A stretch of DNA of 64,000 bases, taken from assembly GCF_000803315.1 (NCBI RefSeq), contig NZ_JRMH01000001.1, positions 2,542,001-2,606,000 of the forward strand, given 5' to 3'. Origin of the DNA: Pectobacterium actinidiae. GTDB lineage: Bacteria > Pseudomonadota > Gammaproteobacteria > Enterobacterales > Enterobacteriaceae. Below are positions 41,315 through 62,906 of this stretch, in pieces. Position numbers and translations under genes: made by a program. Under the pieces are notes generated by a model. It was not told where the DNA came from. It saw only the letters and a list, made by a program, of their open reading frames with translations, and searched no databases. Position 1 is the stretch's first letter, and each line of letters starts with the position of its first letter.

Positions 41315-41391
41315 GCGTTCATAGCTCAGTTGGTTAGAGCACCACCTTGACATGGTGGGGGTCGTTGGTTCGAGTCCAATTGAACGCACCA
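41315..41391 (+). tRNA. tRNA-Val (GAC)
   Basis: A 77-base tRNA including the encoded CCA. The acceptor stem is GCGTTCA/TGAACGC, the D arm GCTC...GAGC, the anticodon stem CCACC/GGTGG with loop TTGACAT (anticodon GAC), and the T arm GTTGG-TTCGAGT-CCAAT. E. coli has two copies (valV, valW) at this position; only one is visible here. Confidence 0.96.
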
Positions 41392-41498
41392 TTCCTTGTT
41401 TTTTCTCCTCCATTTCTCTTAAATTACCGTTCATTTTTCACTCGCCTCATGAAATAAACGCACGATCCTGATTCGTTCATGCCCTCTATTTCGCCAAT

Positions 41499-41530
41499 TT
41501 AAGTAACTTAATTAATCATTAAGTAACTAA
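41499..41530 (+). promoter_or_regulatory. Direct repeats upstream of the lactate operon
   Basis: TTAAGTAACTTA and TTAAGTAACTAA lie exactly 20 bases apart (two helical turns), about 150 bases upstream of the permease start. The first copy is itself nearly palindromic (TTAAGTAACTTAA). This is a candidate binding site for a regulator I cannot name. Confidence 0.35.
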
Positions 41531-53864: not shown

Positions 53865-56800
53865 TTATTCCACCCGCGATTCGATCACCACCACGTACTG
53901 TCCTGCGCGAACCGATGCACCGGGCTGGCAGCGTATATCCCGCACAATGCCGCGCTGCGGTGACACGATGGGGATCTCCATTTTCATCGATTCAAGGATC
54001 ATCAGCGTGTCTCCTTCGGCCACCGTTTTGCCTACTTCCGTCGTCACCTGCCAGAGATTGCCGGAAATCGGGCTTTCTACCCCCACTTGTCCCGGTTGGA
54101 TCGGTGGTTCACTCGCCTCTTCAATCACCCCATCCACGCTATCCGCTATCGATTGACCGGCCATACGCCAGCGCTCGCGCTCCGCTTCAAACGCGGCTCG
54201 CTGGCGCACGCGGAATGTTTCAATCTCTTCCGCTTCACACGATAAGAAATCCTGATAAGCGTTTAACGCCAGTTCGCTTTGTTCGATCCGTAGTGAGTAG
54301 CGTCCTAGCGGGAAATCCCGTCGAATGGATAACAATTCGTCAGCCGATACCGGATAGAAACGAATTTGGTCAAAAAAACGCAGCAGCCACGGTTTGCCGT
54401 CAAATGCGTCAACGCCGCGATAGCGATCCCACATTTGCAGCGTGCGTCCAACAAACTGGTAACCACCCGGCCCTTCCATGCCGTAAACACACAGGTAAGC
54501 GCCACCGATGCCCACCGAGTTTTCCGCGGTCCAGGTACGCGCCGGATTATATTTAGTAGTGACTAAACGGTGGCGTGGATCCAGCGGCGTTGCCACCGGC
54601 GCACCGAGGTAAACGTCACCCAACCCCATCACCAGATAGCTAGCGTCAAAGACCGTGCGGTAAACCTCATCGAGATTATCCAGTTCGTTAATACGGCGGA
54701 TAAATTCAAGGTTGCTCGGGCACCAGGGCGCATCGCTGCGTACCGTGGTCATGTACTTTTGAATCGCCAGTTGGCAGGCGGGATCGTCCCAGGACAGCGG
54801 CAGATAAACCACTCGTGATGGCACAGTCAGATTCTGCTGGGTGCAAACGTCCTGCCATAGCGTGGAGAGCACATCCAACACATGCTGTAGCGAAAGCACT
54901 TCGGGACGATAGTGCACCTGCAACGAGCGAATGCCCGGCGTCACGTCAATGATGCCATCAAGCGCCTGTTGCTCTAACGCCAGCATGAGTGCATGGACGC
55001 GGAAACGCAGCGCAACATCCAACTCCGCTGCGCCCACCTCCAGCAGCAAGTGGGTATCGCCGGATAGCCGTGCAACCAACCGCTTGTCCGCCTCACCGCT
55101 ATCCAACACCACCGGAGAAATGAGCGCGGCAGGTGACCAATCAATCGCGATCGGAGCAAGCTGTTCCACCTCCGCCTGACGTGCCTGCGCCAGTGCACGC
55201 GCCGTCGGGAGATCGACAGGAATAAAGCGCACACGGTCGCCCGCAGTAAGCTGCCCCAACGCCCACAGGTCAGCTTCGATTACCGTCACCGGACAGACGA
55301 ACCCACCGAGGCTCGGGCCATCCGGCCCCAGAATAACCGGCATATCGCCGGTGAAATCCACCGCGCCGATGGCATACGGGTTATCATGAATATTCGAAGG
55401 GTGCAGCCCGGCTTCTCCACCGCTGTCACGTACCCACTCCGGTTTTGGCCCAATCAGGCGCACGCCCGTGCGGCTGGAGTTAAAATGTACTTCCCACTCG
55501 GTGGCGAGAAAGGTTTCCATATAAGCAGGCGTGAAATAATCCGGTGCGGCATGTGGGCCGTAGACCACACGCAGTTCACGCACGACAGACAACGTGGTAC
55601 GCAATTCGTCCGGCAGGCTATCGCCGGTGTATCTGTCCCTCAGGGGAGCAAGGTGCAATACGTCTCCCGCCCGCAGCGCCCTGCCCGCGTGGCCGCCAAA
55701 CTGCCCCAGTGTGAAGGTGCTTTTACTGCCGAGATAATCCGGCACATCGAACCCGCCGCGCAGGCAGAGATAGCTACGTACGCCCTGATCCAGCATGGTT
55801 CCTAAACGCAGCGTGGCACCCGCCGGTATCGCAAATACGCTATCCATCGGTACAGACTGACCATCCAATTCGATAACGATAGCCGCACCAGTAACCACCG
55901 CCACGGCGTCCGTATTAAAACGCAGTGTTGGCCCATTCATCGTGACTTCCAGCGCCGCCATTCCCGCCGGGTTCCCCACCAGACGGTTGCCTAAACGCAG
56001 TGCGCGATCGTCCATCGGTCCCGACGGCGGCACGCCGACCGCCCAGTATCCGAGACGGCCGGGATAATCTTGTACGGTGGTCTGTGTGCCAGCACTCACC
56101 ACTTCGCAGGTTGTCGCGTTGTAAACCAACGTATCCAGACAGCGCGTCCACGGCTGGCCGCTGGCAAACGGCTCTGCCGCCAAAATCTGACGCAAATAGT
56201 CACGGTTATGTTCAACGCCGTAGAGTCGCGTGTCCGCCAGCGCCCGATCCAATTCGACTATTGCCTGCTCGCGGGTGGGTGCACTAGCGATGATCTTAGC
56301 CAGCATCGGATCGAAAAACGGTGGGATCTCGCACCCGGCCGTCACCCACGTATCGATGCGTAGGCTCTGTCCTTCTGACGCGGGGAACGCAACTTCCGTC
56401 AATAATCCCGGTGACGGCTGGAACTGTTTACCTGGATCTTCCGCGTACAGGCGCGCCTGAATCGCATGACCCTGCGGATTCAATCTAACGGCCAACTCTC
56501 GCAGCGGCGGCAAATCGCCTGCGGCCAGTTCGACCATCCAGCGCACCAGATCCACGCCCCATACCTGCTCCGTTACACCGTGCTCGACCTGAAGGCGCGT
56601 ATTAACTTCAAGAAAGTAAAAACGGTCCGTCGCGCTGTCATAAACGAATTCCACCGTTCCGGCACTGCGGTAATTTACCGCCTGTGCCAGACTGATTGCG
56701 GCAGAACACAGCGCTTCGGCAACGCCATCTGGCAGATTGGGCGCGGGCGTTTCTTCAATCACTTTCTGATTACGGCGCTGTACCGAACAGTCCCGAACCC

Positions 56801-57470
56801 CTAGCGCGAGCACATCGCCCTGCCCATCGCCAAAGATCTGTACCTCCAGATGTCGGGCGCGTTCGATATATTTTTCAATGAAAACGCCTGCGTCGCTGAA
56901 GTTGTTCTGTCCCAAACGCTTTACCGTTTCAAACGCGTCGGACAGTTCCGTGGCGTTATAGCAGACGCGCATCCCGATCCCACCACCTCCGGCTGTGCTT
57001 TTAAGCATGACCGGATAGCCGATCGCTGCCGCCGCACCGAGAGCCACATCAATATTGTCCAGCAGCTCAGTGCCTTCCAGCAGCGGTACGTTGTGCTGCT
57101 TCGCCAGCGCGCGCGCCGTATGTTTTAAGCCGAATACCCGTAGCTGCTGCGGCGTCGGCCCGACAAAGGCAATCTGTGCCGCTTCGCAGGCTTCGGCAAA
57201 CGCCGCATTCTCGGATAGAAAACCATAGCCGGGATGAATCGCCTGCGCGCCGCTGCGCTGCGCCGCAGAGAGAATTTTTTCTACATCCAGATAGGTGTGA
57301 GCCGCCGCGCCCTCTCCCAGGCTAAGGGCTTCATCGGCGTCCTGAATATGCAGGCTACTGATATCGGCATCAGAATAAACCGCGACGCCGCGGACGTTCA
57401 TCTCGCGCAACGAACGCAGAATACGGCACGCAATCGCGCCACGGTTGGCAATCAGAAGTGTGTCGAACAT
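53865..57470 (-). CDS. Biotin-dependent urea/guanidine carboxylase
   Basis: A 1201-residue multidomain enzyme: biotin carboxylase (about 1-450, with the ATP-grasp loop KSTAGGGGIGMRV and EVNTRLQVEHGVTE), carboxyltransferase with KipA- and KipI-like halves (about 455-1050), and a C-terminal biotin carrier domain with ESMKMEI. Proteins of this type were annotated as urea carboxylase; those linked to guanidine-I riboswitches and carboxyguanidine deiminases act as guanidine carboxylases. The riboswitch here favours guanidine. The ribosome-binding site before the ATG is weak. No allophanate hydrolase gene follows. Confidence 0.92.
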   Translation of the reverse strand: MFDTLLIANRGAIACRILRSLREMNVRGVAVYSDADISSLHIQDADEALSLGEGAAAHTYLDVEKILSAAQRSGAQAIHPGYGFLSENAAFAEACEAAQIAFVGPTPQQLRVFGLKHTARALAKQHNVPLLEGTELLDNIDVALGAAAAIGYPVMLKSTAGGGGIGMRVCYNATELSDAFETVKRLGQNNFSDAGVFIEKYIERARHLEVQIFGDGQGDVLALGVRDCSVQRRNQKVIEETPAPNLPDGVAEALCSAAISLAQAVNYRSAGTVEFVYDSATDRFYFLEVNTRLQVEHGVTEQVWGVDLVRWMVELAAGDLPPLRELAVRLNPQGHAIQARLYAEDPGKQFQPSPGLLTEVAFPASEGQSLRIDTWVTAGCEIPPFFDPMLAKIIASAPTREQAIVELDRALADTRLYGVEHNRDYLRQILAAEPFASGQPWTRCLDTLVYNATTCEVVSAGTQTTVQDYPGRLGYWAVGVPPSGPMDDRALRLGNRLVGNPAGMAALEVTMNGPTLRFNTDAVAVVTGAAIVIELDGQSVPMDSVFAIPAGATLRLGTMLDQGVRSYLCLRGGFDVPDYLGSKSTFTLGQFGGHAGRALRAGDVLHLAPLRDRYTGDSLPDELRTTLSVVRELRVVYGPHAAPDYFTPAYMETFLATEWEVHFNSSRTGVRLIGPKPEWVRDSGGEAGLHPSNIHDNPYAIGAVDFTGDMPVILGPDGPSLGGFVCPVTVIEADLWALGQLTAGDRVRFIPVDLPTARALAQARQAEVEQLAPIAIDWSPAALISPVVLDSGEADKRLVARLSGDTHLLLEVGAAELDVALRFRVHALMLALEQQALDGIIDVTPGIRSLQVHYRPEVLSLQHVLDVLSTLWQDVCTQQNLTVPSRVVYLPLSWDDPACQLAIQKYMTTVRSDAPWCPSNLEFIRRINELDNLDEVYRTVFDASYLVMGLGDVYLGAPVATPLDPRHRLVTTKYNPARTWTAENSVGIGGAYLCVYGMEGPGGYQFVGRTLQMWDRYRGVDAFDGKPWLLRFFDQIRFYPVSADELLSIRRDFPLGRYSLRIEQSELALNAYQDFLSCEAEEIETFRVRQRAAFEAERERWRMAGQSIADSVDGVIEEASEPPIQPGQVGVESPISGNLWQVTTEVGKTVAEGDTLMILESMKMEIPIVSPQRGIVRDIRCQPGASVRAGQYVVVIESRVE

Positions 57471-57578
57471 ACGCTAGACTCATGCAAGGGCGGGTCGTCC
57501 CGCCAAAATGCGATCCGCATGATGGTCGTCCATCGCGGTAAATGTCATTGGGTGCAGAGGCCTGCTACCACGCTAGAA

Positions 57579-57722
57579 TCACGGGGTTTTGTCAGACTGA
57601 GCACGGCTCGACAGCGGCAGAAAATAGCGATTTGCCCTTGCCTCCAGCGCGCTCACCAGCCACGCTTTCACCCGCTGCCAGCGCGTAGGTTTTTCATCGC
57701 CTCGTTCCGACGTCAATTCCAT
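57579..57722 (-). CDS. Possible small ORF coupled to the deiminase subunit gene
   Basis: A 47-codon frame starting at an ATG that overlaps the stop of the upstream deiminase subunit gene by ten bases. The product is basic and has a possible amphipathic helix ([20 protein letters not shown]). It fills most of the 242-base gap before the carboxylase gene. I recognise no family, and coding status is unproven. Confidence 0.35.
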
Positions 57723-58348
57723 ATCAGCACCTCCGCGGGCGTCGGGTTCCAGCCGTTGCACGGATTATTCAACTGCGGACAGTTGGAAATCAGCACAATG
57801 ACATCCGCTTCGGCACGCAGCTCCACGTATTTCCCCGGAGCGGAAATACCGTCCTCAAAGGTCAGTCCACCTTCTGCCGTCACCGGCACGTTCATGAAGA
57901 AGTTGATGTTCGCGCCGATGTCCTTTTTGTTCAGGCGACCATCGTGCAGGCAGGCACAGAGAAAATTGTCGCGACAGCTATGCATGTAGCGCCGATCGAG
58001 CGCATAGCGCACGGTGTTACTCTCCTGCGCACAGGCACCGCCCAGCGTGTCATGACGACCACAGGTGTCGGCGACAATCGTCAGCAGCGGATTGCCAAGA
58101 TTGGAGTACAGCACGCTGCCCGTCGTCAGGTAGACGCTATTTTGGCGGCGCAGCGTACGTTGCGGATCGTAGCGTTCACGCGGATCGTTGACGCGATAAA
58201 ACAGCGTATCCACCGCCTGATTACCTTCCAAATCCAGCAGTCGCAACGTCTGTCCCTGCTTCACCTCAAACAGATAGGGTTCTCCGGCAGGAATCACATG
58301 GCGGAATACCGCATCCTCGGCCGTTTTATTGCTGGCAATTAACGTCAT
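57713..58348 (-). CDS. Carboxyguanidine deiminase subunit (CgdA/CgdB family), second gene
   Basis: A 211-residue protein formerly annotated as urea carboxylase-associated. Shares with the preceding gene the block [20 protein letters not shown] followed by RHDTLGG, and INFFMNVPV. The two paralogues are thought to form a heteromeric deiminase that turns carboxyguanidine into allophanate. A CNGWNPTP motif lies near the C-terminus. Start at 58348 with AAGGAGG. I do not decide which of CgdA or CgdB it is. Confidence 0.85.
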
Positions 58349-58359
58349 GTCCGGCCTCC

Positions 58360-59094
58360 TTACAGGCAAAAGCGTTCGGTGTTGTGAAACGCACGTGCAT
58401 TTTCCTCACGGAATTCACGGCAGTAGCCAGCAGCATCCTCGCTTTCCGCCCGGCGCCAGGTGAGCGCGATTGGTCGCGGCGCATACGTCGGGTTGGGATC
58501 CATCGGATGCTGCAAAGCGGTGAGCACCACCAGCGTATCCATCGGCGCATACAGCTCGATGTAGTTCCCCGCCTGAGAATGATTGGCGTGAAAATGAAAC
58601 TGCCCCTGCGCATCGACGGTCACTTTGCTAAACAGGTTGATGGTCATCAGCAGATCTTGCAGATTAAGATTCCATTTCCCCATCTCGACCAGCAGGTTAT
58701 CCATGCCATTACGGAAAAAACCGTTACGCCATTCCTGATAGCGCCCCTGCCCGTATTTCGCCTGCACCTCCTGCGCATTGAGCACACCGCCGAAGCTGTC
58801 GTGCCAGCCACAGGTATCAGTAATGATTGCCGCCAGCACGCGTCCCATATCGGAATAGAGGCAGTGCCCAGCCGTTAATTTGGCGGTGTGTTGCCCTTTA
58901 AGGGTATCCGGCAGGTTCAGGCGTTCGCTGGTCTGGTGCGCGTTGAATAGCAGCAGGCCAACGTTGCCGCCACCTTCCACATCGGTTATCCGTAGAATCT
59001 GTCCACGCTTGAGAATGAAGGAGGTATGCCCTCCCCCCGGCACCGTTTCTTCGTCAAACGTTGTTCGGCCTGTTGGTGTCTGTATCTCTGTCAT
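58360..59094 (-). CDS. Carboxyguanidine deiminase subunit (CgdA/CgdB family), first gene
   Basis: A 244-residue paralogue of the next gene, with [20 protein letters not shown] followed by HDSFGG and [10 protein letters not shown]. Together the two are expected to form the carboxyguanidine deiminase. A strong AAGGAG lies upstream; GTG at 59097 directly before the ATG is an alternative start. It lies 13 bases after the ABC ATPase gene and 11 before its paralogue, so all are in one operon. Confidence 0.85.
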
Positions 59095-59107
59095 CACACA
59101 AAGCTCC

Positions 59108-59899
59108 TTAAATGGGGGATGTTGCCGCGCTGGCTACAGAAGGCAGCGGCGTCAGCGCACGCTGACGCGTGGCGAGACGCTCCTGATTAAGCGGGATGTC
59201 ATAGGTAATGCGCGCGCCATAAGCTTCCGGCGCATGGGGATCGACGCGTACTTTGTCGAACACCAGCAAACGCGTGCCGAGATGGAACCCCTCCGGTAAA
59301 TCGTGGGTAACCATAAAGACCGTTAAGCGTGTTTCTCGCCACAGCTCCAGCAGCAGCGAGTGCATATCGCCGCGAATACCGGGATCCAGCGCCCCGAACG
59401 GCTCATCCAGCAGCAGGATGCGCGGCTGGACAATAAACGCCTGCGCAATCGCCAGCCGTTGCTGCATGCCGCCGGAAAGCTGGTTGGGGTATTTATGCAT
59501 GGCGTGCCCCAGCCCGACGCGCGCCAGCATACGTGCGGCACGGTCTCGAACGTCCTGCTTACGCTGTCCGAACAGCCTGCCGAGCCAAGGGGAACCCGGT
59601 ATTTCCAGCCCAATCACCACGTTTTCCAGTACGGTTAAATGCGGGAAAACCGAATAGCGTTGAAATACCACGCCGCGACTGGCATCGGGTTCAGCTGGCA
59701 GCCGCTTGCCTTCGAGCCGGACTTCACCACGGCTGGGCGTTTCCTGCCCCAACAGCAGGCGTAGAAAAGTGGATTTACCGCAGCCGGATGCCCCAACCAT
59801 CGTGCAGAACTCCCCTTCCTCAACGTTCAGGTTGAGCCGTTCCAGCACCACGTGGTCGCCGTATTCCTGCCAGATGTTATCGATCTCGATAAAACTCAT
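59108..59899 (-). CDS. ABC transporter ATP-binding protein (guanidine operon)
   Basis: A 263-residue ATPase of the nitrate/taurine (NitT/TauT) type. Walker A is GASGCGKST, the signature LSGGMQQRLAIAQA, Walker B ILLLDEPFGALD, and the H-loop VTHD. The start at 59899 overlaps the permease stop (ATGA); the frame is open upstream but lies within the permease gene. It energises uptake of the operon's substrate, probably guanidine. Confidence 0.92.
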   Translation of the reverse strand: MSFIEIDNIWQEYGDHVVLERLNLNVEEGEFCTMVGASGCGKSTFLRLLLGQETPSRGEVRLEGKRLPAEPDASRGVVFQRYSVFPHLTVLENVVIGLEIPGSPWLGRLFGQRKQDVRDRAARMLARVGLGHAMHKYPNQLSGGMQQRLAIAQAFIVQPRILLLDEPFGALDPGIRGDMHSLLLELWRETRLTVFMVTHDLPEGFHLGTRLLVFDKVRVDPHAPEAYGARITYDIPLNQERLATRQRALTPLPSVASAATSPI

Positions 59900-60711
59900 G
59901 CTTTGCTTTCCTCTGACCACGGGAACCCACAGCGATGCAGCCACCGCAGCGCCATGTCCATGAACCATGCCAGCAGCGTGATCCACACGACGTAAGGCAG
60001 GATGACGTCCATCGCCAGATAGCGGCGTACCAGAAAGATGCGGTAACCGAGCCCCGCCGTTGCCGAAATCGCTTCGGCAGAAATCAGGAACAGCCACGCC
60101 GCGCCCAGCAGCAGCCGCAGTGAAATCAACAGCCGCGACAGCAGTTGCGGCAGAATGACGCGCAGCACCACGACCCAACTGCTTGCCCCCAGCGTCTGCG
60201 CTTTAATCAACGTTTCCTGCGGTATGTTGCGAGCACGCTGTTCGAGGTCGCGCGCCAGCATCGGCGTAACCCCAATCACGATCAGCATCACTTTCGAGAG
60301 TTCATCCAGCCCAAAAACGATGAAGAGAATGGGCAAAATCGCCAGCGGCGGGATCATCGACAGTACGGTCATCAGCGGCGAGAGCGATGCACGAAATAGC
60401 GGGAACGCCCCGGCCATAATCCCGAACAGCAGGCTCAACAGGCTGGCGATCCCCAGCCCCAGCGCGAGACGCGCCAGACTGGCCTGCGTATCCAACCAGA
60501 ACAGGTAATCGCCGCTGCGTTTGTCCTCGGTCAGTGCCATGCGCTGAATCGCCTCGGCCATTTGTCCGAGACTCGGCAGAAGTTTGTCATTGGGGTTAGC
60601 CTCCAGCCGCACTGCCGACCCGATGAGGTACAGCACGAGCAGTACGACAAACGGCAGCAGAACCAGTAACAGCCGTCCGCCCCGACTGGGGTAGCGATTG
60701 ATCAAGCGCAC
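59896..60711 (-). CDS. ABC transporter permease (guanidine operon)
   Basis: A 271-residue inner-membrane permease of the BPD_transp_1 type with about six membrane segments. The EAA-loop region QETLIKAQTLGASSWVVVLR couples to the ATPase. The start is a GTG at 60711 with GGAGAG upstream, 22 bases after the stop of the binding-protein gene; a longer ATG start would overlap that gene. Confidence 0.9.
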   Translation of the reverse strand: MRLINRYPSRGGRLLLVLLPFVVLLVLYLIGSAVRLEANPNDKLLPSLGQMAEAIQRMALTEDKRSGDYLFWLDTQASLARLALGLGIASLLSLLFGIMAGAFPLFRASLSPLMTVLSMIPPLAILPILFIVFGLDELSKVMLIVIGVTPMLARDLEQRARNIPQETLIKAQTLGASSWVVVLRVILPQLLSRLLISLRLLLGAAWLFLISAEAISATAGLGYRIFLVRRYLAMDVILPYVVWITLLAWFMDMALRWLHRCGFPWSEESKA

Positions 60712-60733
60712 GATAGTCTCTCCAGTTTGCGGG

Positions 60734-61792
60734 TCAGAGTTTGTTCTCTGCGGCCAGACGCACGAAGGTGTCGTCAAAGCGCAGTTTCACATTGGCGCTG
60801 TCACCCAGCGTTCCCTGCCCAGGGAACGTCATGCCGATAAAATCTGCGCTCTGTGCACCGGTGCCGAGTAACCCCTTGTCGAAGGAGAAATCCGCGACCC
60901 GCTTCATGGTATTAGGGAGATCCGGGCTGGTCAGAAACGCCAGATTGTCCTGTGGGGAATAAAACAGATGGGTGGTTTTCAACTGCGCCTGATAGCCGGC
61001 TAAATCGGTACCAGAGGCAGCAGCCATTGACTCCAGCGCGGGTTTATCGCCCGCTTTCATTAGCGTCATCATTTCAAACCAGGCACCGGCCAGCGCTTTG
61101 CCCAACGCCGGATTGTCCTGTAACGTTTGCGTGTTCACGACCATCATATCGATGAGTTCACCGGGGATCTGACCAGACTGAAAGACTTCCGTGGTGTCCG
61201 GCTGGCTTTTGATTGCAGAAAGCTGGGGGTTCCAGGCGACGGCGGCCTGCACGCTGCGAGTGGCAAAGGCAGCGACAATATCGGCATCCGACGTGTTGAC
61301 GATAGTGACATCCCGCTCACGCAATCCGGCGGTTTCCAGACCGCGAACCAGCAGGTAATGCGAGACAGAGAGTTCAGGCAGGTTAACCTTCATCCCGCGC
61401 AAATCACTCAGCGTTTTCCCTTTGCCTTTGAGCACGATGCCATCGTTGCCTGCGGAGAAACTGCCGAGCAACAGCGCTGTGGTATCCACACCGCCCGCGG
61501 CCGGAATGGTCAGTGCATCCATGTTGGTCATCGTGCAGCCGTCAAACTGCCCGGCGGTGTATTGATTAATCGACTCGACGTAGTCGTTAAGCTGCGTGAC
61601 CTTGATCTTGATGCCGTACTTGTCGGCCCATTTATCGATAATGCCCTGCGTGCCGATGAACCCCCACGGCATCCATCCGGCATAGATAGTCCAGCATACG
61701 TTGAATTGCGTTTTAGGCGCAGCCTGAGAAGGGAAGCTCAGCAATGCTGAGAGACTGAGGACGCAAACGCCCAGTAAACGAGATAGGTTCAT
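60734..61792 (-). CDS. ABC transporter substrate-binding protein (guanidine operon)
   Basis: A 352-residue periplasmic protein of the NMT1/THI5/TauA-like family. The signal peptide is residues 1-24 (cleavage near SQAAPKT). Mature landmarks include CWTIYAGWMPWGFI and FDGCTMTNMDALTIPAAGG. First gene of the operon; GGAGGTC lies before its ATG. Related proteins are labelled urea carboxylase-related ABC transporter components. A guanidine-I riboswitch precedes it, which points to guanidine as ligand. Confidence 0.92.
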   Translation of the reverse strand: MNLSRLLGVCVLSLSALLSFPSQAAPKTQFNVCWTIYAGWMPWGFIGTQGIIDKWADKYGIKIKVTQLNDYVESINQYTAGQFDGCTMTNMDALTIPAAGGVDTTALLLGSFSAGNDGIVLKGKGKTLSDLRGMKVNLPELSVSHYLLVRGLETAGLRERDVTIVNTSDADIVAAFATRSVQAAVAWNPQLSAIKSQPDTTEVFQSGQIPGELIDMMVVNTQTLQDNPALGKALAGAWFEMMTLMKAGDKPALESMAAASGTDLAGYQAQLKTTHLFYSPQDNLAFLTSPDLPNTMKRVADFSFDKGLLGTGAQSADFIGMTFPGQGTLGDSANVKLRFDDTFVRLAAENKL

Positions 61793-61814
61793 GCCAGACC
61801 TCCGGTTGAGTAGG

Positions 61815-61860
61815 AAAAAAGCGGGAACAGCGCGACACCATGGGTGTTGCTGTCTCCCGG
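61815..61860 (-). terminator. Riboswitch-controlled intrinsic terminator
   Basis: On the minus strand CCGGGAGACAGC pairs with GCTGTTCCCGC (one bulge), with an inner ACACC/GGTGT hairpin, and runs into six T. The 5' arm overlaps the conserved 3' end of the aptamer, so ligand binding should prevent termination. Confidence 0.85.
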
Positions 61861-61950
61861 GCTTTTATCCCGCCGTGTAACCTCAACTGGAGGTCGCCAG
61901 CTCTCGGACCAGACATCCATATGGTATGGATCGGAACCCTAGCCAGCTAT
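61852..61950 (-). ncRNA. Guanidine-I (ykkC-yxkD) riboswitch aptamer
   Basis: The conserved segments of the ykkC class I motif appear in order on the minus strand: CTAGGGTTCCG, then CTGGTCCGAGAG, then ACACGGCGGGATAAAAGCCC and GGGAG. Helices P1 and P2 can be drawn. It lies in the leader of the guanidine operon, 60 bases upstream of the binding-protein start, and has an overlapping terminator. Confidence 0.95.
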
Positions 61951-61995
61951 TCAGGTTGTTCAGCGCCATGCGTGGTGCTGTCCCGAAGAGATAAG

Positions 61996-62011
61996 AGCAA
62001 AATGCGTGCCA
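61996..62011 (-). promoter_or_regulatory. Sigma-54 promoter of the guanidine operon
   Basis: On the minus strand TGGCACGCATTTTGCT matches the -24/-12 consensus TGGCACG-N4-TTGCW at every defined position. The GC of the -12 element is at 61997-61998, so transcription should start near 61985, about 35 bases before the riboswitch. Two NtrC-like sites lie upstream. Confidence 0.8.
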
Positions 62012-62075
62012 GTACCGAAAAGCCCAGTACGGCTGTGGTTTATAAGGGGAATTATGCGGGGAAGCACGCCGCTCT

Positions 62076-62124
62076 CGCGCCATCTCGGTGCAGCAGCGCA
62101 GCAGGTGCGCATCACGGCGGTGCA
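62076..62124. promoter_or_regulatory. Two NtrC-like sites upstream of the sigma-54 promoter
   Basis: CGCGCCATCTCGGTGCA (62076-62092) and CGCATCACGGCGGTGCA (62108-62124) each match the NtrC consensus TGCACYA-N3-TGGTGCA at 11 of 14 half-site positions. Their centres are 32 bases apart and lie at about -99 and -131 from the predicted start, the arrangement known from glnA. Confidence 0.6.
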
Positions 62125-62147
62125 GATACCGTTGGCAGGTGCAAGAT

Positions 62148-62561
62148 TCAGCGAACGGCAGTACTCGCCGCGATTTTTTCCAACAGCACACTAAATACCG
62201 CTTGTTCGTCAGAGGACAAGGCCTGAAGCATTCGCGCCTCTATCTGCTTTTCCTGATGCAGAAAAACCTGCGTAAACGCGACGCCCTTATCGGACAAACT
62301 GAGCCACACGCTGCGGCCGTCATCCGGATTATCGATCTTGCGGACATAATCACGTTTGACCAGCTCCGCGACCATGCGGGTGATCTGTGCCTTATCGCGC
62401 CCCACGGACTTCGCCAGTGACTGAGGCGTAATGCGCCCTTCCGTCGCAATAATCTTGCATAAGCGAATGTGCACCACATCCAGATTGATGTCGTGTGCTT
62501 TCATCTGTTCCTGCATCTGTGCCTTAAAACTTTCCAATAAGGCAAAAAGGGGTTTCATCAT
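62148..62561 (-). CDS. MarR-family transcriptional regulator
   Basis: A 137-residue winged-helix regulator: RITPQSLAKSVGRDKAQITRMVAELVKRDYV is the recognition region and NPDDGRSVWLSLSDKG the wing. Two ATGs are adjacent at the start. It is divergent from the DUF3861 gene, and the 80-base gap contains two perfect palindromes, likely its operators. It lies upstream of the guanidine operon on the same strand but before the sigma-54 promoter. Confidence 0.9.
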   Translation of the reverse strand: MMKPLFALLESFKAQMQEQMKAHDINLDVVHIRLCKIIATEGRITPQSLAKSVGRDKAQITRMVAELVKRDYVRKIDNPDDGRSVWLSLSDKGVAFTQVFLHQEKQIEARMLQALSSDEQAVFSVLLEKIAASTAVR

Positions 62562-62566
62562 GGTTT

Positions 62567-62612
62567 ATTGACTCAGTCAATCAATGATCATATAGTTGAT
62601 TTTATCAACTAT
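62567..62612. promoter_or_regulatory. Two palindromic operator candidates in the MarR-DUF3861 gap
   Basis: ATTGACTCAGTCAAT (62567-62581) is a perfect 7-bp-arm palindrome directly upstream of the MarR start. ATAGTTGAT-ttt-ATCAACTAT (62592-62612) is a perfect 9-bp-arm inverted repeat between the two promoters. MarR proteins typically bind such sites. Confidence 0.65.
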
Positions 62613-62642
62613 CTATCACGAGTTCAATTTACCGGGGGCATT

Positions 62643-62906
62643 ATGGGCAACGTTTATCAGATCACGCTGGAAGAAAAAGCCGAGCAGCAACGTACGCTGT
62701 CGTTTGAATTCTCGATTCACGATGATGTGTTTACATTACTGGAAAAAGTCGATGGCAAGATGGACATGACGCCGGAACAGACTCAGGCCTTTCTGGTGGG
62801 GTTGAAGCTATTCAGTGAAGTGATGATGCAGAAAAGAAAACATCCGCTGTTTAAGGAATTTGCAGCCCCGTTCAGGGAATTTATGCTTAATCTTAAGAAG
62901 CAGTGA
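62643..62906 (+). CDS. DUF3861 domain protein
   Basis: An 87-residue protein of the DUF3861 family, starting MGNVYQITLEEKAEQQRTLSF, which has no known function. Start at 62643 with GGGGGCATT upstream; the frame is open for 25 codons before it, but those lie in the operator region. It is divergent from the MarR gene and convergent with katG, so a role in the response controlled by that MarR is likely but unproven. Confidence 0.8.
   Translation: MGNVYQITLEEKAEQQRTLSFEFSIHDDVFTLLEKVDGKMDMTPEQTQAFLVGLKLFSEVMMQKRKHPLFKEFAAPFREFMLNLKKQ

Follow-up and report, generated by a model that had tools for sequence, protein, structure and literature searches.

A sigma-54-type promoter with NtrC-like sites ahead of the Guanidine-I riboswitch of a Pectobacterium operon: probable joint control by nitrogen and guanidine

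A -24/-12 element of the sigma-54 type stands just upstream of the Guanidine-I riboswitch of a guanidine operon in the window (the whole stretch of 64,000 nucleotides of Pectobacterium actinidiae DNA analysed here), with two NtrC-like palindromes farther upstream, and from these sequences we put at roughly 85% the probability that the operon is nitrogen-controlled and guanidine-gated. The elements, their conservation among related loci and their order are directly visible in the sequences compared. An earlier note, made from the letters of the window, had proposed the same arrangement; it is right on the sequence and very probably right on the regulation.

The operon, its promoter and its leader

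All features lie on the minus strand and are listed from upstream to downstream.

62148..62561, minus strand: MarR-like regulator gene, immediately upstream in the same orientation; MarR-family matches below cut-offs
62108..62124, minus strand: distal NtrC-like palindrome TGCACCGCCGTGATGCG, read as TGCACC-GCCGT-GATGCG; centre 62116 (-131); 10/12 half-site bases
62076..62092, minus strand: proximal NtrC-like palindrome TGCACCGAGATGGCGCG, read as TGCACC-GAGAT-GGCGCG; centre 62084 (-99); 10/12 half-site bases
61852..61953, minus strand: Guanidine-I riboswitch aptamer (RF00442); 97.7 bits against a gathering score of 63, so that the Rfam threshold is reached
61815..61858, minus strand: terminator-like hairpin and U6, the 5' arm sharing bases with the aptamer's 3' end; putative expression platform
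60734..61792, minus strand: ABC transporter substrate-binding protein, TIGR03427; 564 bits, cut-off 334
59896..60777, minus strand: ABC transporter permease; best NCBIfam match a TauC-type permease, below cut-off
59108..59899, minus strand: ABC transporter ATPase; matches many ABC-ATPase families, below cut-offs
58360..59097, minus strand: UAAP1 (carboxyguanidine deiminase subunit), TIGR03425; 325 bits, cut-off 206
57713..58369, minus strand: UAAP2 (carboxyguanidine deiminase subunit), TIGR03424; 331 bits, cut-off 285
57490..57537, minus strand: Guanidine-II riboswitch aptamer (RF01068), within the operon; 41.8 bits, gathering score 32
53865..57470, minus strand: guanidine carboxylase (annotated as urea carboxylase), TIGR02712; 1845 bits, cut-off 1304

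The start of the ATPase gene at 59899 was set by eye, the family scan having covered 59108-59998, and the frames downstream of the carboxylase resemble, again by eye, genes for an antiterminator and a PTS permease. The UAAP family is presumably that of COG3665. The MarR-like gene probably does not belong to the operon; a PADLOC search with its protein gave weak matches only. With Guanidine-II just before the carboxylase gene, a single operon carries two guanidine riboswitch classes, and this internal placement of Guanidine-II has previously been described in other enterobacteria (accessible sections of PMC12186494). Elsewhere in the window, at 41353-41506 on the minus strand, there is an Rfam match to the HPnc0260 antisense RNA (63 bits, cut-off 59), which overlaps a tRNA gene on the opposite strand (41315-41388).

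No allophanate hydrolase gene is present within the operon, which in this respect is not complete; the hydrolase is encoded in a separate operon (G000:C1:2371626-2373293), where it precedes a second TIGR02712 carboxylase gene and urea transporter genes (L055 3996-9408, taken from G000:C1:2364000-2381000). The two carboxylases have 615 of 1161 aligned residues in common. An Asp at Kluyveromyces lactis residue 1330, which is TIGR02712 position 701, is the published criterion that separates guanidine carboxylases from urea carboxylases (PMC11410670, in the sections available). Within the motif YAIGAV[D/N]FTGD the window carboxylase has Asp705 and the distal paralogue Asn687, this column being tentatively equated with position 701 from its nearness. 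The claim of the earlier note that guanidine is here a nitrogen source, and not only a toxin, fits the gene content, and such use is known in enterobacteria with the same type of operon (PMC12186494, sections available).

The -24/-12 element occupies 62012-61996 on the minus strand (CTGGCACGCATTTTGCT, that is, CTGGCACG-CATT-TTGCT) and matches every one of the 13 consensus positions in a pattern search; the stretch TGGCACGCATTTTGCT at 62011-61996 likewise shows zero mismatches to the -24/-12 pattern, which bears out the full match first reported. Its GG and GC elements stand at the fixed spacing of a sigma-54 promoter, in a TGGCAC-N5-TTGC context, and transcription is predicted to start at 61985, twelve bases beyond the C of the GC element; the aptamer starts 32 nt past that point. 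The pattern with up to two mismatches occurs three times in the window against 7.8 expected and is no commoner than in shuffled sequence, so a single loose match carries no weight and conservation was used instead. The exact form TGGCACG-N4-TTGCW occurs twice in the 4.92-Mb genome, and a control pattern read backwards also occurs twice; about two exact matches are thus expected genome-wide by chance. The case for the predicted promoter is its position beside the riboswitch together with its conservation, not the match alone, and it is on conservation and placement, rather than on any single match, that a chance match was set aside as an explanation.

It is highly unlikely that the -24/-12 match lies unused and that the operon is instead served by a sigma-70 promoter or by transcripts running on from the MarR-like gene. 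That gene is just upstream on the same strand, the only two sigma-70-like sites found on the minus strand in 61700-62700 precede it, and no terminator-like site was found between it and the operon (in a scan that also missed the hairpin at 61858); against this, the promoter scan found no sigma-70-like site on the minus strand from 62560 to 61953, and an element that is not used would scarcely stay at a constant distance in all 19 genus loci and turn up again in other families, as described below.

Downstream of the aptamer, 61858-61821 folds as a strong hairpin followed by six T, and the RNA of 61872-61800 has a folding energy of -30 kcal/mol (z -3.5); the consensus terminator scan did not report the hairpin at 61858-61815. 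From these features the leader may be a termination-type on-switch. A run of T of the kind searched for follows the aptamer in just 43 of 100 loci, and for this reason termination is proposed for the window leader only.

Distribution of the promoter beside guanidine riboswitches

The Guanidine-I aptamer was found in 19 of 25 genomes of the genus. At all 19 loci a -24/-12 element scores at least 11/13 (all 13 positions in 17 of them), and in every one it sits 59 nt before the aptamer. The alignment across Pectobacterium that the earlier note had called for thus finds the GG and GC elements kept throughout and at a constant distance. Agreement with the window sequence over the 19 loci is 0.966 for the promoter and 0.907 for the 42 nt between promoter and aptamer.

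The family search found the aptamer in 30 of 198 genomes, two of these belonging to the genus. Outside the genus, 26 of 28 loci carry the element at 11/13 or better, beginning 48 to 72 nt before the aptamer in these 26; at one of the two low-scoring loci (L035) the aptamer itself is below the gathering score. At a further locus (L026), in a genome listed as 49% complete, the gene for the importer binding protein appears to be split between frames, possibly by a sequencing error.

Class-wide and phylum-wide searches found the aptamer in 29/369 and 43/398 genomes, respectively, and the best-scoring aptamers of these searches supplied 53 further loci. At least 11/13 was reached in 41 of them and at least 10 in 46; 12 scored below 11, two of which lack any GG/GC pair. 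Five of the 53 lie outside the class, which we take to be Gammaproteobacteria in the broad sense, including Burkholderiales, and 38 of the 48 inside it score 11 or more. Twenty extra places were fetched from the matches listed, eight in the class and 12 outside, and 6/8 and 4/12 of these reach 11. Overall, the element is present at 44/56 loci of the same class outside the family and at 7/17 outside the class (3 of these 17 aptamers being below the gathering score). The seven positives outside the class (L104, L106, L108, L262, L263, L265, and L266) have the element 26 to 28 nt before the aptamer, abutting it, and none has an NtrC-like site at 10/12; it is as if another arrangement were used there. 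A phylum-wide rule, which we had claimed first, was dropped on these grounds, and on present sequences the layout holds as a general tendency within the class but not across the phylum. Note that, of the 86 loci scoring at least 11 in the 100-locus set, five have a predicted start that lies within the aptamer match, by 1 to 6 nt, and two more have it 1 nt before; none of these seven belongs to the family. A predicted start inside or abutting the aptamer at 7/86 loci needs explaining and counts against our reading.

Two controls bear on the specificity of these counts. With the 4-nt spacer the element is found at 19/19, 26/28, and 41/53 loci, whereas spacers of 2, 3, 5, and 6 nt give zero or one locus each (of 100); loci reaching 11 with a wrong spacer amount to two counts in the 100-locus set, one in the named set described below, and two in the 20 extra loci. 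Beside the aptamer, 19/19 and 67/81 loci reach 11, against 0/19 and 0/80 in nine other upstream windows of 150 nt.

The named-record set consists of the best 80 of 555 records and comes partly from the same genomes as the other sets of loci. The element was found upstream of the importer gene in 79 of these 80, with a score of at least 12 in 60. An Rfam scan of 16 of the 80 recovered Guanidine-I in every one; Erwinia rhapontici, Klebsiella michiganensis, Raoultella, Pseudomonas, and Paraburkholderia are among them. Erwinia aphidicola (L162 and L163) and Pantoea allii (L187 and L189) each have two contigs with the importer gene and the same promoter, perhaps representing two copies of the operon start. 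In two Klebsiella species, a ZTP riboswitch lies about 2.3 kb before Guanidine-I (L180 478-557 and L188 456-534). A relative of the importer binding protein is encoded on 235 of 72,556 plasmid records, 124 from Rhizobium and 73 from Pantoea.

A tblastn match to a protein of the window operon lies no more than 1500 nt downstream at 95 of 100 loci (counted by hand); the five without one are L035, L073, L078, L082, and L107, of which only L073 scores at least 11. For this reason a contrast of assimilation with export inside Guanidine-I loci was dropped in favor of one with Guanidine-II loci. The family search for Guanidine-II gave aptamers in 68 of 149 genomes, and 30 loci were fetched. Their best -24/-12 score in the upstream 150 nt is 9/13; the first gene is SugE-like, as judged by eye, in 25, a carboxylase in two, and an unassignable ORF in three. 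The promoter type goes, on this comparison, with assimilation rather than with guanidine sensing itself, a contrast limited by the difference in riboswitch class between the two sets.

The same comparison bears on the idea that the operon serves mainly in detoxification, with nitrogen control incidental. Guanidine riboswitches do often control exporters, as the SugE-like genes illustrate, but genes for an importer, a deiminase, and a carboxylase are present here and no exporter was found among the operon genes scanned; the promoter type accompanies assimilation operons, and none was seen at the exporter loci. We regard a mainly detoxifying role as very improbable.

NtrC-like sites and the choice of activator

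Relative to the predicted start the two palindrome centers of the window are at -131 and -99, a spacing of 32 bp that is also that of the NtrC sites of glnA. Counted by hand against the 14-position NtrC consensus TGCACCAnnnTGGTGCA, as quoted in PMC8743547, each site agrees at 11/14 positions, which reproduces the two 17-bp sites with 11 of 14 half-site positions that had been described near -99 and -131. Two 10/12 palindromes upstream of a sigma-54-type promoter are what would be expected of a member of the NtrC regulon, although the sites are weak in the genus: the best NtrC-like site between -60 and -220 reaches at least 9/12 in 18/19 loci and 10 in only 7/19, the best score being 8 or 9 in 12/19; among shuffled genus loci 0.8% of 160-nt stretches reach 10/12. 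The distal palindrome is, by eye, weaker in those genus loci whose compared stretch reaches that far. Both blocks are nevertheless conserved, in favor of the earlier note, for which a lack of such conservation would have counted as refutation, with a mean identity over the 19 loci of 0.885 for the distal block (14/17 columns invariant) and 0.901 for the proximal one (8/17 invariant), against 0.63 to 0.72, as agreement with the window sequence, in the stretches between and around them. Thus, the NtrC-like sites appear modest in the home genus, even though their blocks are kept.

A broader test of the half-site used TGCACC-N5-GGTGCA, scored at -240 to -60 from the predicted start of 165 of the 180 loci, those whose promoter scores at least 11 (15 lower-scoring loci were left out), reduced to 112 non-redundant loci. 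A site of 10/12 is reached in 46, and 11 in 12, leaving 66 without one at 10/12; outside the home genus the count is 43/105. Among 120 permutations of the half-site the real one ranks first with 46 loci, the next giving 12 and the median 1, and among gaps of 0 to 11 only a gap of 5 stands out (46; the next gives 10). Shuffled sequences yield a mean of 1.6 loci at 10/12 and at most 5. Forty of the 56 site centers, counted by hand, fall at -84 to -89, -98 to -100, -109 to -119, or -128 to -131, and 16 fall elsewhere; the clusters, near -87, -99, -116, and -130, are spaced by perhaps one helical turn, as if the sites stayed on a single helix face. A Paraburkholderia locus (L212) combines the aptamer, an 11/13 promoter, and a 10/12 NtrC-like site.

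The genome encodes one NtrC over the cut-off (1013 bits to PRK10923) and one RpoN. Other proteins of the same genome match the NtrC family below cut-off, and at least some of them are taken to be sigma-54 activators; the sigma-54 promoter might therefore be real and its activator another protein, for example, a sensor of guanidine or a related compound. The imperfect half-sites of the genus and the 66/112 loci mentioned above would fit such an activator. Its assignment is nonetheless unlikely because the NtrC half-site outdoes the 119 other permutations, and does so at the NtrC gap only, and because the scan of genes within the operon and next to it turned up no such activator. NtrC is thus the activator that we prefer.

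Two further loci of the genome have similar upstream regions. The allophanate hydrolase gene (atzF) is present in 24 of 25 genomes of the genus; a -24/-12-like element of at least 10/13 is found in the same place at 22 of the 24 loci, and a pair of NtrC-like sites of at least 9/12, at -107 and -86, at 23 of the 24. The genome's one remaining exact promoter match stands before a gene for a 1408-residue protein (L109 3860-8459) that combines a molybdopterin-oxidoreductase part with a CysJ-like one; with nitrate-reductase matches that stay under their cut-offs, it is probably a fused assimilatory nitrate reductase. An 11/12 NtrC site lies there, at -98 as counted by hand, and the leader is about 280 nt long. 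This locus provides an internal yardstick for the guanidine promoter.

A two-input switch and its relation to known systems

In the mechanism that we propose, shortage of nitrogen would lead to binding of phosphorylated NtrC at the palindromes at about -131 and -99, from where, by looping, it would reach RNA polymerase-sigma-54 at the -24/-12 element to start transcription near 61985. The hairpin at 61858-61815 would be passed only when guanidine keeps the Guanidine-I aptamer in its bound form; read-through would then allow the importer and carboxyguanidine deiminase to be made, and the internal Guanidine-II would gate the carboxylase. Guanidine would be imported, carboxylated, and deiminated to allophanate, from which the allophanate hydrolase of the separate operon, which has a sigma-54-like promoter and NtrC-like sites of its own, would release ammonia. 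We infer the action of sigma-54 and NtrC, the termination mechanism, and the working of the two layers as an AND gate.

The closest parallel is the nas system of Klebsiella oxytoca, which also combines nitrogen control by Ntr with a substrate-specific check by transcription antitermination (PMC5424462, sections available); unlike here, where the leader would be read by a guanidine-binding RNA, the nas leader is read by the protein NasR, which senses nitrate. In Raoultella terrigena, Erwinia rhapontici, Klebsiella michiganensis, and Vreelandella boliviensis, the guanidine carboxylase operons likewise have Guanidine-I before the importer and deiminase genes and Guanidine-II before the carboxylase, and all four organisms grow on guanidine as a nitrogen source (PMC12186494 and PMC12508155, each in its accessible sections); they differ from the genome of the window in that the latter keeps its allophanate hydrolase in a separate operon. 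The accessible sections of these two papers contain no mention of the promoter class of the operons, and the main text of PMC12186494 has no occurrence of NtrC, RpoN, NtcA, or "nitrogen limitation". Operon proteins were strongly raised on guanidine relative to ammonium (PMC12508155, accessible sections). Such a rise would fit both inputs, and the growth data in the available sections do not tell nitrogen control apart from induction by guanidine.

Nitrospira lies outside this phylum. A point against nitrogen control is that a Nitrospira used guanidine equally with and without ammonium (available sections of PMC11410670). RNA-seq of a Burkholderia cenocepacia H111 ntrC mutant under nitrogen limitation revealed reduced transcription of I35_7283-7286, genes that the authors read as serving urea use; by their descriptions these resemble the present operon in encoding a periplasmic protein, an aminomethyltransferase, and a urea carboxylase (available sections of PMC5491218). 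A promoter prediction for what is presumably the UAAP family is similarly given in PMC12316311, where, in contrast to the present work, the word "guanidine" has zero occurrences in the main text and the aptamer is not mentioned in the sections available. The accessible parts of a Sinorhizobium start-site paper (PMC3616915) and of PMC8381380 have nothing on this operon. Within a limited search of the open-licence literature, no report joining sigma-54 or NtrC to a guanidine riboswitch was found. Guanidine as a nitrogen source and the Guanidine-I/Guanidine-II layout were thus known already, and what is apparently new, so far as that search extends, is the riboswitch version of the nas logic.

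We think it likely that the arrangement holds as a rule for the class, with a sigma-54 promoter just before Guanidine-I bringing guanidine assimilation operons into the Ntr regulon, as a two-input switch, and exporter genes being governed by the riboswitch only. If so, promoter class would tell feeding from defence riboswitches by sequence alone, and some "urea carboxylase" genes in NtrC regulons already in print would in fact be guanidine genes; such genes may likewise lie under that name in the available data on nitrogen starvation and ntrC mutants. Guanidine riboswitches have raised the question of whether guanidine is food or poison, and the promoter gives it an answer at the level of sequence that is testable in laboratory strains: since a nitrogen-starvation promoter is predicted before the guanidine switch in most of the class's operons examined, the finding suggests that guanidine serves these bacteria as food and is not solely a poison to be removed.
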